Of a stretch of DNA of 64,000 bases, positions 58,713-61,987 are shown one piece after another. The notes under the pieces were generated by a model. It had not been told where the DNA came from. It saw only the letters and a list, made by a program, of their open reading frames with translations, and did no database searches. A program made the position numbers and the translations under genes. Origin of the DNA: Ammonifex degensii KC4. GTDB taxonomy: Bacteria; Bacillota; Desulfotomaculia; Desulfotomaculales; Ammonificaceae. Every line of letters begins with the position of its first letter. The stretch's first letter is position 1. Where the stretch lies: positions 1 through 64,000 of the forward strand of contig NC_013385.1 of assembly GCF_000024605.1 (NCBI RefSeq). Reading direction: 5' to 3'.

Positions 58713-58844
58713 AGGCGACATACCTTTCGCTGCCGTCATGATACTCTTATTGAAAGAGCGGGTCTCTTTCCGAGGAGGTTCGTAGCAGCTACGAAAAAGA
58801 AAACTGTCGTTGACTATTTGTGACTAATTTACTATCGTGAAGGC

Positions 58845-58993
58845 ATGGAGCTTTTATCTATTGGGAAAGCGGCGAAGATGCTGGGCGTACGCCCGAACAG
58901 GCTGCGGGCGTGGGGAAAGTACGACAAAAAGTCCGGCAGGGTTTCCGGGAGCTGATCGAGGGTGCGGAGAAAGCACAAAAGGGAGAAGTTTAG
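58845..58993 (+). pseudogene. MerR-like HTH ORF, apparently frameshifted (IS607 TnpA-like)
   Basis: From ATG 58845 a DNA-binding head reads MELLSIGKAAKMLGVRPNRL, then RAWGKYDKKSGRV, stopping at TGA 58953. One extra T in GTTTCC would continue as FRELIEGAEKAQKGE to TAG 58991. The head resembles the MerR-type N-terminus of IS607 serine recombinases, whose catalytic part is absent. A promoter TTGACT-17-TATCGT lies at 58810-58838. It overlaps the TnpB-related start. Confidence 0.5.
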
Positions 58994-60647
58994 CATTACA
59001 GTCTGCGGGGAGTTCTTCCCGGAAGTTTATCCTGCCTTCCGGTCGGCAAAGTGGAGCCGTGGTGAGGAAGACCCGCTGGAAACGGAGATGCGGCTCTTCT
59101 GTGCCTGCGAACGGTGGGCCTACAACCGGCTCTTGGAAGGCACCTCCCGGGACGAAATTAAGAAGCGCGGCCAGGAGCTTTTCGGGCTCAACTCCCGGTA
59201 CGTGGACGACGCGTGCTTAAAAGCCCAGGCCCTGCTTCACTCCCAGAAAGAGCTCCTGGCACAGGAAGTAGAGGAGACGGAAAAGAAGCTGGGCCGCGCC
59301 AGGAAGAAGCTCGGCTTAGCCATGAAGAAGCTGGCCAGGGCCGAAAAGAAGGGCGCCGCCCCTGCCGTGCTGGAAAAGCTGCGCCTGGCGGTCAAGGGCC
59401 GCGCTTCACGCGTAGCCTCCTTGGAAAAGAAACTGACCGAACTCAACTCCCACCTGGAAAACGGCACCCTTCCCAAGCTGGTCTTCGGCGGCAGGAAGCT
59501 CTGGAAGAGGGTTTGCAAAGGCCGGGCCACGCGGGAGGAGTGGCGGCACGCCCGCAAAAACCGCCTCTACTCCCGTGGGGACGAAGAGAAAGGCGGCAAC
59601 CCGAACATCAAAGTCTTCCACCGGAACGGGGAGTTCTACCTGTCGGTGGCCATCTCCCACCTCTCGGAGAAGATAGGTGAGGACAAGCTTGGCCGCCCGA
59701 AGATGAGCCGCGCCCCGAGAGTGGAGGGCAGGCTCTGGCTGCCGGAGAAGCACCGTGGCCTGGTCAGGATCTGGCTGGCCATGAAACTGCCCTACACGGC
59801 GGAGCTGATGCACACTCCAGAGGGGCGGTACCTGGTCCACCTGACGTTTGACCTGGGCGGGCTCAAGGAGCCTGACTTCGTGAGGGGCTGCCTTGCCCTG
59901 GACACCAACCCCGACGGGGTGGCTTTGTGCAACGTCGGCACCACGGGCCTGCCGGAGCCCTGGCCGGAAGGCCTCCAAGCCGTCCCCTACCCGGGCAACC
60001 TGGGCAAGTACGAAGGGGAGTTCCAGGTCATAACCTACCCCTCGGGCTTCATGTACATTAGGGTGCCCGACCTGGCTTACACTTCCGGCTTCCGGCGGGA
60101 CTACCTGATAGGCGTGCTGGCCAAGGTAGTGGTGGGCGTAGCCTTTTTCCTGGGCAAACCTGTAGTCCTGGAGGACTTAGACTTCGGCAAGGACCGGCTG
60201 GACACTAGCAGAAAGTTTAACCGCATGGCTTCCAACTTCCCCTACGCCAAGATGGTGGAGGCGGTGTGCAGGAGGGCGGCCAAGGAAGGTGTGCCCTTTA
60301 AGCTGGTACCGCCGCGGCACACCTCCACCATCGGGTACTGGAAGTACATGAGGCGCTATGCGGTCCCGGTGCACTGTGCGGCGGCACTAAGTGCAGGCCG
60401 CCGGGTCATGGGCTTCAAAGAGAAGATCACGCGGGAAGTTAAGGAGTTCGTGCTCCGGGTCAAGCAGAGACTTACTTCCGGTGATTCCTTGCCTGGGGAA
60501 GGAAGAGGGATGACCCGGGAGGTCAGGGCCCTGCTTGCCCGGCTGGAAAAGAAGCTTTCCCTGCACAACGGGCTTGCCCGCTGGCAGCAGGAAAGCTTCG
60601 GTTCCTGCTGGCGCGAGCTTAAAGAGCTGGCTCTGGCTTTCCGGTGA
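58962..60647 (+). CDS. TnpB-related RuvC-fold protein (IS200/IS605/IS607 accessory type)
   Basis: 561 residues from GTG 58962. A lysine-rich coiled region spans about 95-165 (QEVEETEKKLGRARKKLGLA). RuvC-I is CLALDTNPDGVAL (Asp near 311) and RuvC-II is VVLEDLDFGKD (Glu near 406). The third motif, normally DxNAA, reads HCAAALSAGRRVMGF near 477, with His where Asp is expected. The CxxC zinc ribbon of canonical TnpB is missing. It belongs to the TnpB-related branch common in thermophilic Firmicutes. It could be an RNA-guided nuclease with altered chemistry or a nuclease-dead binder. No transposase TnpA is intact nearby. Confidence 0.82.
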   Translation: MRRKHKREKFSITVCGEFFPEVYPAFRSAKWSRGEEDPLETEMRLFCACERWAYNRLLEGTSRDEIKKRGQELFGLNSRYVDDACLKAQALLHSQKELLAQEVEETEKKLGRARKKLGLAMKKLARAEKKGAAPAVLEKLRLAVKGRASRVASLEKKLTELNSHLENGTLPKLVFGGRKLWKRVCKGRATREEWRHARKNRLYSRGDEEKGGNPNIKVFHRNGEFYLSVAISHLSEKIGEDKLGRPKMSRAPRVEGRLWLPEKHRGLVRIWLAMKLPYTAELMHTPEGRYLVHLTFDLGGLKEPDFVRGCLALDTNPDGVALCNVGTTGLPEPWPEGLQAVPYPGNLGKYEGEFQVITYPSGFMYIRVPDLAYTSGFRRDYLIGVLAKVVVGVAFFLGKPVVLEDLDFGKDRLDTSRKFNRMASNFPYAKMVEAVCRRAAKEGVPFKLVPPRHTSTIGYWKYMRRYAVPVHCAAALSAGRRVMGFKEKITREVKEFVLRVKQRLTSGDSLPGEGRGMTREVRALLARLEKKLSLHNGLARWQQESFGSCWRELKELALAFR

Positions 60648-60929
60648 CCCCGTTTAGCCGGTGTCGGACAAACCGGTAGGCGTCCTAACAGGACGGTGCC
60701 CGCGGTGGCGAACTGACGCCACCCCTATCCCGGCAAACTCCGACCTGCGGGTGCAGAAGCACCCCGTGAAGTCCGTGCAGGCGAGTCCGGGGTACGGGAG
60801 GAGAGAACTCTTCCGCGGGCACTCCGGGTGGGACTCCCGGGCCGAGGTCCCCTGTCGCCCTGCTGTCCTCCCCAGGGGACAGCAAATCAAGTATCCGGAA
60901 AGGAGGCGAACACCTGGTCTGGGGGCCGG
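60648..60929 (+). ncRNA. Hairpin-rich segment, candidate omega/guide RNA of the TnpB-related protein
   Basis: The 280 bases after the stop hold no gene but at least four perfect stems: CGTCCT/AGGACG (60681-60695), GGTGGCG/CGCCACC (60704-60723), GGGTGC/GCACCC around AGAA (60749-60764) and GTCCCCTG/CAGGGGAC (60847-60880). A CCGGT/ACCGG stem begins near 60659. The GGGTGCAGAAGCACCC loop resembles the right-end hairpin of IS605/IS607 omega RNAs. Exact 5' and guide ends cannot be set by eye. Confidence 0.5.
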
Positions 60930-60955
60930 CTTGACTGGAAACAGTCAAGTTTTTT
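60930..60955 (+). terminator. Intrinsic terminator after the structured RNA region
   Basis: CTTGACTG and CAGTCAAG pair in a perfect 8-bp stem around GAAA, followed by six T. Confidence 0.9.
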
Positions 60956-60970
60956 GAACCAGGTAGATGG

Positions 60971-61987
60971 ATGTTTACCAAGGTGTGGCGGGTCGACCCC
61001 TTACGACCCGAAAGCCTGGCACTGGAGGAAGCGGGGGAGCTCTTGAGACGAGGGGAACTGGTAGCCTTCCCCACGGAGACGGTATACGGCCTGGGAGCAG
61101 CGGCGACCCAGGATGAGGCCCTGCGCCGGGTCTTCGCGGTAAAAGGACGCCCGGCTCGCAAGCCCCTCACCCTGCACCTGGCAGACCCTGAGGAGGTTTT
61201 CCGGTACGTGAAAGAGGTTCCCTCTACGGCCCGCCGGCTCATCTCCTCCTTCTGGCCCGGGCCCCTCACTCTGATACTTCCTGCTGCTTCCGGGCTGCCA
61301 CCGAGCCTTACGGCCGGGGGGGAGACCGTGGGGATTCGGGTGCCCGATCATGCAGTGGCGCAGGAACTCATCCGGATGGCCGGCCTTCCCCTGGCGGCAC
61401 CCAGCGCCAACCTCTCTGGGCGGCCTGCTCCCACCAAGGCTGCGCACGTGCTCGCCGAACTGGGGGGAAAGATAGCGGGGGTGCTGGACGGTGGTCCTAC
61501 TCCCTTAGGGATAGAGTCCACGGTGGTGGAGGTAAGGGGGGAAGAGCTCGTCGTCCGGCGGGTGGGAGCCCTTCTGCCGGAGGAGATAGAGGAGAGGACG
61601 GGAATTAAGCCCTTGGTGGCTCCGGCCGAAGGGGAAGGGCGGTGGTGGCTAAAAGCGCCGCTTGTCTTGGTGGAGGGGGAAGTGCCTGAGCAGGTAGTGG
61701 CGCGGGTTCTGGCCGAAGCCTCCCGGCAAGACCGGGTGGGCCGGCGGGTAGGGGTGCTCACCCGTGAAGAGAGGGTGGGGCTTTATCAGCCCTTCACGGC
61801 CCTGGCCTGTGGCCGGGTGGAGGACGGGCCCCGTAGCGTGGCCGCTGCCTTTTACGCCGCCTTGCGGGATATAGAGGAGCGGGTGGAGATCATAGTGGCG
61901 GAAGCGGTGGTGGCGGAGGTAGGGAAGGTGGTGCTCCTGCGGCTGCGGGAGATGGCTGCCGAGAGGTACGAGGCAGGTAGGAGTTAA
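60971..61987 (+). CDS. ywlC: L-threonylcarbamoyladenylate synthase (Sua5/YwlC type)
   Basis: 338 residues. The YrdC domain covers about 15-205 (GELVAFPTETVYGLGAAATQ, KGRPARKPLTLHL, FWPGPLTLIL, SANLSGRPAPTKAAHV). The C-terminal Sua5 domain spans about 225-338, as in the long two-domain form. It makes threonylcarbamoyl-AMP for t6A at tRNA position 37. ATG 60971 is close to the preceding terminator. Confidence 0.95.
   Translation: MFTKVWRVDPLRPESLALEEAGELLRRGELVAFPTETVYGLGAAATQDEALRRVFAVKGRPARKPLTLHLADPEEVFRYVKEVPSTARRLISSFWPGPLTLILPAASGLPPSLTAGGETVGIRVPDHAVAQELIRMAGLPLAAPSANLSGRPAPTKAAHVLAELGGKIAGVLDGGPTPLGIESTVVEVRGEELVVRRVGALLPEEIEERTGIKPLVAPAEGEGRWWLKAPLVLVEGEVPEQVVARVLAEASRQDRVGRRVGVLTREERVGLYQPFTALACGRVEDGPRSVAAAFYAALRDIEERVEIIVAEAVVAEVGKVVLLRLREMAAERYEAGRS

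Follow-up and report, generated by a model that had tools for sequence, protein, structure and literature searches.

A mobile IS607-family element of Ammonifex degensii carries a TnpB-related protein with a conserved histidine at the RuvC-III position and a covarying 3' RNA region

The window analysed here was the 64,000-nucleotide stretch at positions 1 to 64,000 of contig NC_013385.1 of Ammonifex degensii KC4, read on the forward strand. At 58779-60963 of this strand lies a tnpA-deleted, non-autonomous IS607-family element of 2,185 bp (one crossover GG counted), defined by the ends common to four genomic copies and by an empty site in Ammonifex thiophilus. It comprises, all on the plus strand, a left end GGAGGTTCGTAGCAGCTACGAA (58777-58798, the first GG being the crossover GG), a tnpA remnant (58845-58955), a tnpB-related gene (58962-60647), and a putative guide-RNA (omega/reRNA) scaffold (60643-60963) that extends from the stop codon of tnpB as far as the right end TTTTTTGAACCAGG. 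The left end was identical or nearly identical in 4/4 own copies and could be recognised in about 40 relatives, and the right end showed small variations among the four own copies when these were aligned with their flanks. Since the element is bounded by the GGs at 58777-58778 and 60962-60963, the span of 58845-60929 given in an earlier sequence-only reading of this DNA was too short.

The tnpB-related gene begins with GTG and encodes a 561-aa protein with a long helical insert at about residues 78-167 and a split RuvC domain. The RuvC-I Asp (D314, codon 59901-59903, LALDTNPDG) and the RuvC-II Glu (E404, codon 60171-60173, VVLEDLDF) are present, and the RuvC-III Asp of the D-E-D triad is replaced by H471 (codon 60372-60374, VPVHCAAAL). 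In general, D-E-D is the triad given for TnpB and Cas12 nucleases, and a C4 zinc ribbon between RuvC-II and RuvC-III is a feature of many, not all, TnpBs. No Cys pair was found between RuvC-II and RuvC-III, where residues 453-475 hold one Cys only, and the protein therefore has no zinc ribbon; the ribbon was missing across the whole branch. On all of these points, namely the visible Asp and Glu, the His in place of DxNAA and the absent ribbon, the sequence-only reading was confirmed. The protein scored 37.5 bits against NCBIfam TIGR01766, above the cutoff of 32, and matched guided_TnpB with E 2.6e-23, yet at 82.9 bits, under the cutoff of 100; Pfam gave no match within E 0.01. A single-sequence search of solved structures returned nothing relevant, and a profile search returned chains of Cas12f, of TnpB and of further Cas12 proteins at E 4e-5 to 4e-3, chiefly across the RuvC-II region. 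The 561-aa protein is a His variant related to TnpB, not a canonical D-E-D TnpB.

The His was conserved throughout the family. Among 62 long non-redundant members, 54 were D-E-H, 7 were cut before the third site, and 1 was K-E-P, and the close relatives that reach the third site with an intact RuvC-I Asp carried His in 54/54. A wider set of 44 representatives contained 36 D-E-H, 4 D-E-D and 1 K-E-P, with 3 not reaching or not aligning at the site; in the same column, the 40 diverse representatives that retain both D and E thus had His in 36 cases and Asp in 4. The column is secure because the His-type and Asp-type proteins have the same surrounding motif (THQAAALVIARR; SKDVAAAYVIARR). In a tree of unknown root, the Asp-type proteins formed one clade among His-type branches, with a single exchange between the two states. 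Every His-type (36/36) and Asp-type (4/4) representative had D314, E404 was invariant in all representatives, and N316 was invariant along with D, E and His across very divergent relatives.

The sequence-only reading had allowed that another Asp might occupy the active site, and no acid conserved so as to stand in for the RuvC-III Asp was found in the 36 His-type representatives. The invariant acids of this set were D314, E404 and E487. E487 was rejected as a substitute third ligand because the Asp-type relatives have it without exception too and the K-E-P homologue retains it, and D318, present in 34/36, was rejected since the same homologue still has it. This solitary homologue (L048; L115, 2423-4132) comes from the Ammonifex sp. 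MAG Tomsk_66_11. Its RuvC-I Asp is changed to Lys and its RuvC-III His to Pro, so that the equivalents of D314, N316 and H471 are lost together while E404 and E487 are kept. It also has a 13-residue gap after RuvC-II, no tnpA was seen nearby, and its guide-RNA scaffold is conserved with the T run lost. Judged from its sequence, it is a candidate for an independently evolved nuclease-dead TnpB, and the joint loss of D314, N316 and H471 is what one would expect to see if His471 acted in concert with the catalytic Asp. Because the His is kept throughout the family, His471 is more likely a working variant than the mark of a dead or tamed gene.

An AF2 model was built from 19 relatives (pLDDT 79, pTM 0.66). 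Its RuvC part, residues 308-486, aligned to residues 1-158 of Thermus thermophilus RuvC (Z about 12, 126-136 residues) and to residues 1-154 of Deinococcus radiodurans RuvC (Z about 12, 134-135 residues). In the modelled fold, D314 falls on Asp7, and H471 falls on His143 of Thermus or His139 of Deinococcus if the last helix is ungapped; these equivalences come from the end offsets of the fold alignments together with sequence motifs, not from measured distances. The motif reads PVHCAAALVIG here, PSHLADALAIA and NNHAADALALA in the PDB sequences, and QADAADALAIA in E. coli. DrRuvC has His139 in place of EcRuvC Asp138, and mutating residues of the site abolishes activity, for which this His is needed (PMC9228767). 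The two resolvases (4ld0, 4ep4, 7w8d; PMC9228767) have the same RNase H fold as the present protein and, like it, carry His where E. coli RuvC has Asp138, but they are dimers that work without guide RNA, and the resolvases with His have a further Asp three residues later (D146/D142), which is Ala in the His-type TnpB family. The likeness is one of analogy and not of membership. The different chemistry proposed by the sequence-only reading is possible and is better put as a RuvC-resolvase-like D-E-H site, and on its structural question, which residue occupies the third site, the fold alignment of the model puts H471 on the resolvase His.

A missing third Asp could also mean that the His makes the RuvC domain inert and that the protein is an RNA-guided binder, like the TldR repressors, which represses the gene whose start it targets. 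Such a role would suit the insertion sites and presumptive guides, which overlap translation starts of genes, and the L048/L115 homologue, which stands without tnpA; as this homologue has clearly lost D314 and H471, the branch can become dead. However, D, E and N316 are invariant along with the His over very divergent relatives, the His is lost only where the RuvC-I Asp is lost, the gene is still multicopy and mobile, and the same His is used by RuvC resolvases. TldR proteins (PMC13418256) resemble the present one in being TnpB-derived, in having lost a canonical catalytic residue and in the RNA adjoining the gene. They differ, since D, E and His are conserved here and the element is mobile; the degenerate triad typical of TldRs is seen in L048/L115 and not in the 561-aa protein. 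Since the His has been kept in step with D and E and disappears with D in the only apparently dead homologue, the binder-only role raised by the sequence-only reading is disfavoured, and we consider it improbable.

The region downstream of tnpB was found to be structured, as the hairpin-rich tail of the sequence-only reading had implied (316 nt, z = -5.4, 0/100 shuffles as stable), and it could be aligned in 39 relatives, whose proteins were as little as 52% identical. RNAalifold gave 33 pairs for these 39 relatives, of which 14 had changes on both sides. The cells were paired in 95.6% versus 87.5% in shuffles, and the covariation score was 0.242 versus 0.093, with 0/500 shuffles as high; when the partners were slid, the score fell to 0.083 or less. 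The downstream RNA thus covaries in homologous loci, a check that the sequence-only reading had itself put forward. A long-range stem is formed by a 5' arm GGTCCCC (60846-60852) and a 3' arm GGGGGCC (60921-60927), with at least 6 gapless pairs in 34/35 relatives scored and 10 different arm pairs, and this stem (GGYCYCCC/GGGRGGCC) encloses the 5' strand of a predicted pseudoknot. That strand, CCTGGT (60913-60918), pairs with ACCAGG (60958-60963) in 39/39 relatives, with one compensatory change (L116). The 3' strand is itself the right end of the element, with the GG crossover at 60962-60963, and on the predicted fold it stops at the element edge, as described for IS607 reRNAs (PMC10711439, PMC11061315). 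An Rfam search of the region gave chance-level matches only up to E 5 and none to RAGATH-18. The omega-RNA-like loop of the sequence-only reading is present as the hairpin GGGTGC-AGAA-GCACCC at 60750-60765, but it occurs in a subgroup of relatives only and is not part of the conserved core.

Between the long-range stem and the pseudoknot 3' strand, and so inside the pseudoknot, lies a terminator-like hairpin (60930-60955), in which the arms CTTGACTG and CAGTCAAG form an 8-bp stem with a GAAA loop at 60930-60949, followed by T6 at 60950-60955. A hairpin near the right end was found in 38/39 relatives by a lenient search, with 25 different stems and a T run after most. It is the only hairpin of the tail with a T run behind it and lies just beyond the end at 60929 where the sequence-only reading had placed a strong terminator; the hairpin within the noted tail, at about 60862-60884, has no T run. 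An automated terminator scan did not list the hairpin and T6 at 60930-60955, probably due to G-T pairs that extend the stem into the T run. The T6 run ends 8 nt before the presumptive guide. Either transcription reads past it to make guides, or the U run belongs to the folded scaffold.

With the hairpin and T6 just before the right end, and with a CCTGGT/ACCAGG pair that could act as DNA, the conserved 3' region might be no guide RNA but a mere 3' UTR that holds a terminator and the ends bound by the transposase. Against this stand the strong covariation of internal helices over about 320 nt, the pseudoknot layout, which agrees with that of IS607 TnpB reRNAs (PMC10711439, PMC11061315), and the Asp-type element of the same genome, whose RNA has the same layout. 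We regard a plain 3' UTR as very unlikely, and the region is read below as a guide-RNA scaffold.

A whole-genome search of A. degensii KC4 found three further full-length copies elsewhere on the chromosome, with about 89% protein identity. The frame, about 561 aa long, is open in all four own copies, each of which has the same His motif, and when they were aligned with their flanks, the boundaries were common and the outside sequence was unrelated. The adjoining genes differ from copy to copy, and the tnpA deletion is different in each, with tnpB, the RNA and both ends kept in all. The family was then searched with the joined left and right flanks of the present copy, and the empty site AGGAGGTAGGGAAATG was found in A. 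thiophilus, a species of the same genus, where both flanking genes are contiguous and the sequence across their junction is GCAGGAGGTAGGGAAATGACC. The GG at both junctions and the single GG in the empty site showed that the ends were joined at GG, without target duplication. These comparisons show the mobility, the ends and the empty site of the element. In its way of life the locus at 58779-60963 is an ordinary mobile element, and its active site is unusual and conserved.

Pairwise dN/dS among the own copies was 0.26-0.35, which indicates purifying selection on the tnpB gene. A decaying remnant without function, which the deletion of tnpA and the fragmentation of other family members might suggest, is hardly credible against these ratios, the open frame of about 561 aa in 4/4 own copies, and an RNA and two ends that are intact. 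Domestication as a host gene, which the sequence-only reading had proposed and for which this copy's lack of tnpA and intact ORF and RNA could speak, was rejected on the dispersed copies and the A. thiophilus empty site: four copies with precise ends lie at unrelated sites beside different neighbour genes, each with its own tnpA deletion, many copies occur in other genera, and relatives carry tnpA.

The MerR-like head at 58845 was correctly recognised as broken in the sequence-only reading. Alignment with the own copy L002 and with the intact TnpA of L031 identified it as the start of an IS607 tnpA, whose first 36 codons, for the MerR-like DNA-binding head (58845-58955), are joined out of frame to the tnpA 3' end. 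L002 keeps both the tnpA head and the C-terminal end, the tnpA remnants of the other own copies match NF033518, and in L031, from another genus, a whole 221-aa tnpA open frame adjoins the same tnpB. An intact serine-recombinase TnpA is absent at the 58779-60963 copy and present in L031, L036, L037, L040 and other relatives; the present copy is to be classed as a deletion derivative and not as an autonomous IS607. That no transposase is left holds for this copy, but not for its relatives, and other IS607 subfamilies of the A. degensii KC4 genome account for at least 15 intact tnpA genes. Elements L026-L030 of the same genome belong to a second family of IS607 TnpBs, in which the RuvC-III column holds Asp. 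Their ends (right end TTTTTAAAACCAGG, left end GGAGG) and RNA layout are similar to those of the His-type element. The intact TnpA of this family may mobilise the His-type element.

Relatives of the element were carried by 71 loci in named genomes, with a multicopy expansion in Carboxydocella. In Carboxydocella thermautotrophica strain 41 (L079, L083-L086, L119 and others), many copies have in common a short left end that lies about 125 nt ahead of tnpB. This suggests one tnpA-less derivative that was multiplied, which points to transposition in trans.

The target of the present copy, GAGGAGG (58772-58778), is the Shine-Dalgarno sequence of the downstream gene, contains the crossover GG at 58777-58778, and holds the presumptive target-adjacent motif (AGGAG). 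Right of the element, the flank that would be a 20-nt guide, TAGATGGATGTTTACCAAGG (60964-60983), includes the start codon (60971) of the gene that follows, Sua5/YwlC-like by sequence; the position of this flank relative to the right end is that of the guide in IS607 TnpB reRNAs (PMC10711439, PMC11061315). The 44 left flanks examined were purine-rich, followed by G in 44/44, G in 41/44 and A in 42/44 before the crossover GG. Among 50 right-end flanks, a start codon with an ORF lay 3-13 nt away in 41, compared with a background of 17% at shifted positions, and the distance peaked at 7-8 nt. From these left-flank counts and the start codons 7-8 nt on, the insertions of the family sit at AGGA|GG, the ribosome-binding site. 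For IS607 itself a (G)GG preference has been reported, with no further relationship described (PMC6188088), and the TAM of ISXfa1 TnpB is GGG (PMC10711439). Ren et al. found the TAM 5'-AGGAG in 18/22 strains with IS607 TnpBs tested (PMC11061315), and the insertion motif here equals this TAM; the words "Shine" and "ribosome" do not occur in that paper. We infer that the 561-aa protein uses AGGAG as its TAM. The insertion statistics suggest a reason why IS607 TnpBs read AGGAG, namely that it is the ribosome-binding site, and therefore that these elements target gene starts. In a genome search with the presumptive guide of the present copy, two sites came up besides its own junction, one at two mismatches and the other at three, and a reversed control gave a similar chance level; matches to the L115 guide were no commoner than for its reversed control.

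Taken as a whole, the 561-aa protein is probably an active RNA-guided nuclease with a D-E-H active site, a reading to which we assign a probability of about 0.75. The non-autonomous element would retain this nuclease together with its guide RNA, and a serine recombinase supplied in trans by a related element would recombine the GG dinucleotides and so insert the element into the Shine-Dalgarno sequences (AGGA|GG) that immediately precede genes. The tnpB transcript would fold in its 3' part as a pseudoknotted scaffold that ends exactly at the right end, and therefore the host sequence beyond would become the guide. The TnpB-RNA complex would then recognise AGGAG plus guide, which is the empty site, and cut there, and repair from the element-bearing copy after the cut would preserve the element. 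The RuvC site would be Asp-Glu-His and not Asp-Glu-Asp, with His471 as the third metal ligand, as His143/His139 of Thermus and Deinococcus RuvC. Several points count against such a nuclease. The fourth acid of the resolvases (D146/D142) is Ala here, the guided_TnpB score is under its cutoff, and the hairpin and T6 would cut guide synthesis unless read through. To our knowledge, no D-E-H TnpB has so far been shown to cut. The activity of the D-E-D IS607 TnpB of ISFba1 depends on the predicted RuvC site including D371 (PMC11061315).

The ISFba1 system (Ren et al. 2024, RAGATH-18 reRNA, PMC11061315) resembles the present one as a Bacillota IS607 element with a pseudoknotted RNA directly downstream and a guide position past the right end, and its TAM, AGGAG, equals the insertion motif of the present family. 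Its TnpB is 387 aa with D194-E290-D371, whereas the present protein has 561 aa, D-E-H, a long helical insert, no zinc ribbon and an RNA without a RAGATH-18 match. ISXfa1 TnpB (Yoon et al. 2023, PMC10711439) shares the GG crossover, a G-rich TAM (GGG; presumptive in the present system) and a pseudoknotted reRNA past the transposon end, in which the pseudoknot is required, but it has a canonical triad, GGG instead of AGGAG and a short reRNA of about 150 nt. Triad variation in IS607 elements is also seen in Fanzor and related TnpBs with a moved RuvC-II Glu (PMC10711439); there the Glu has moved elsewhere in the fold, whereas here His occupies the very position of the Asp.

If a conserved mobile D-E-H branch is real, the third metal ligand would be exchangeable as in RuvC resolvases, and caution is due in calling such proteins dead from sequence alone; the branch would also offer thermophilic nucleases. 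A PNAS 2023 survey of TnpB diversity reportedly found rearranged catalytic sites in several branches. A further-reaching proposal, speculative and on balance doubtful, is that of a broad, previously unremarked TnpB branch, specialised on Shine-Dalgarno sequences, whose resolvase-like D-E-H centre has altered metal use or an altered cut pattern (e.g. Mn-dependent, nicking), and whose guide is made only on read-through of the internal terminator, so that guide supply is regulated. With Asp-type and His-type elements of similar ends and the same target type in one genome, a direct comparison is possible. The 2.16 Mb A. degensii KC4 genome as a whole carries roughly 25-30 tnpB genes of four subfamilies.
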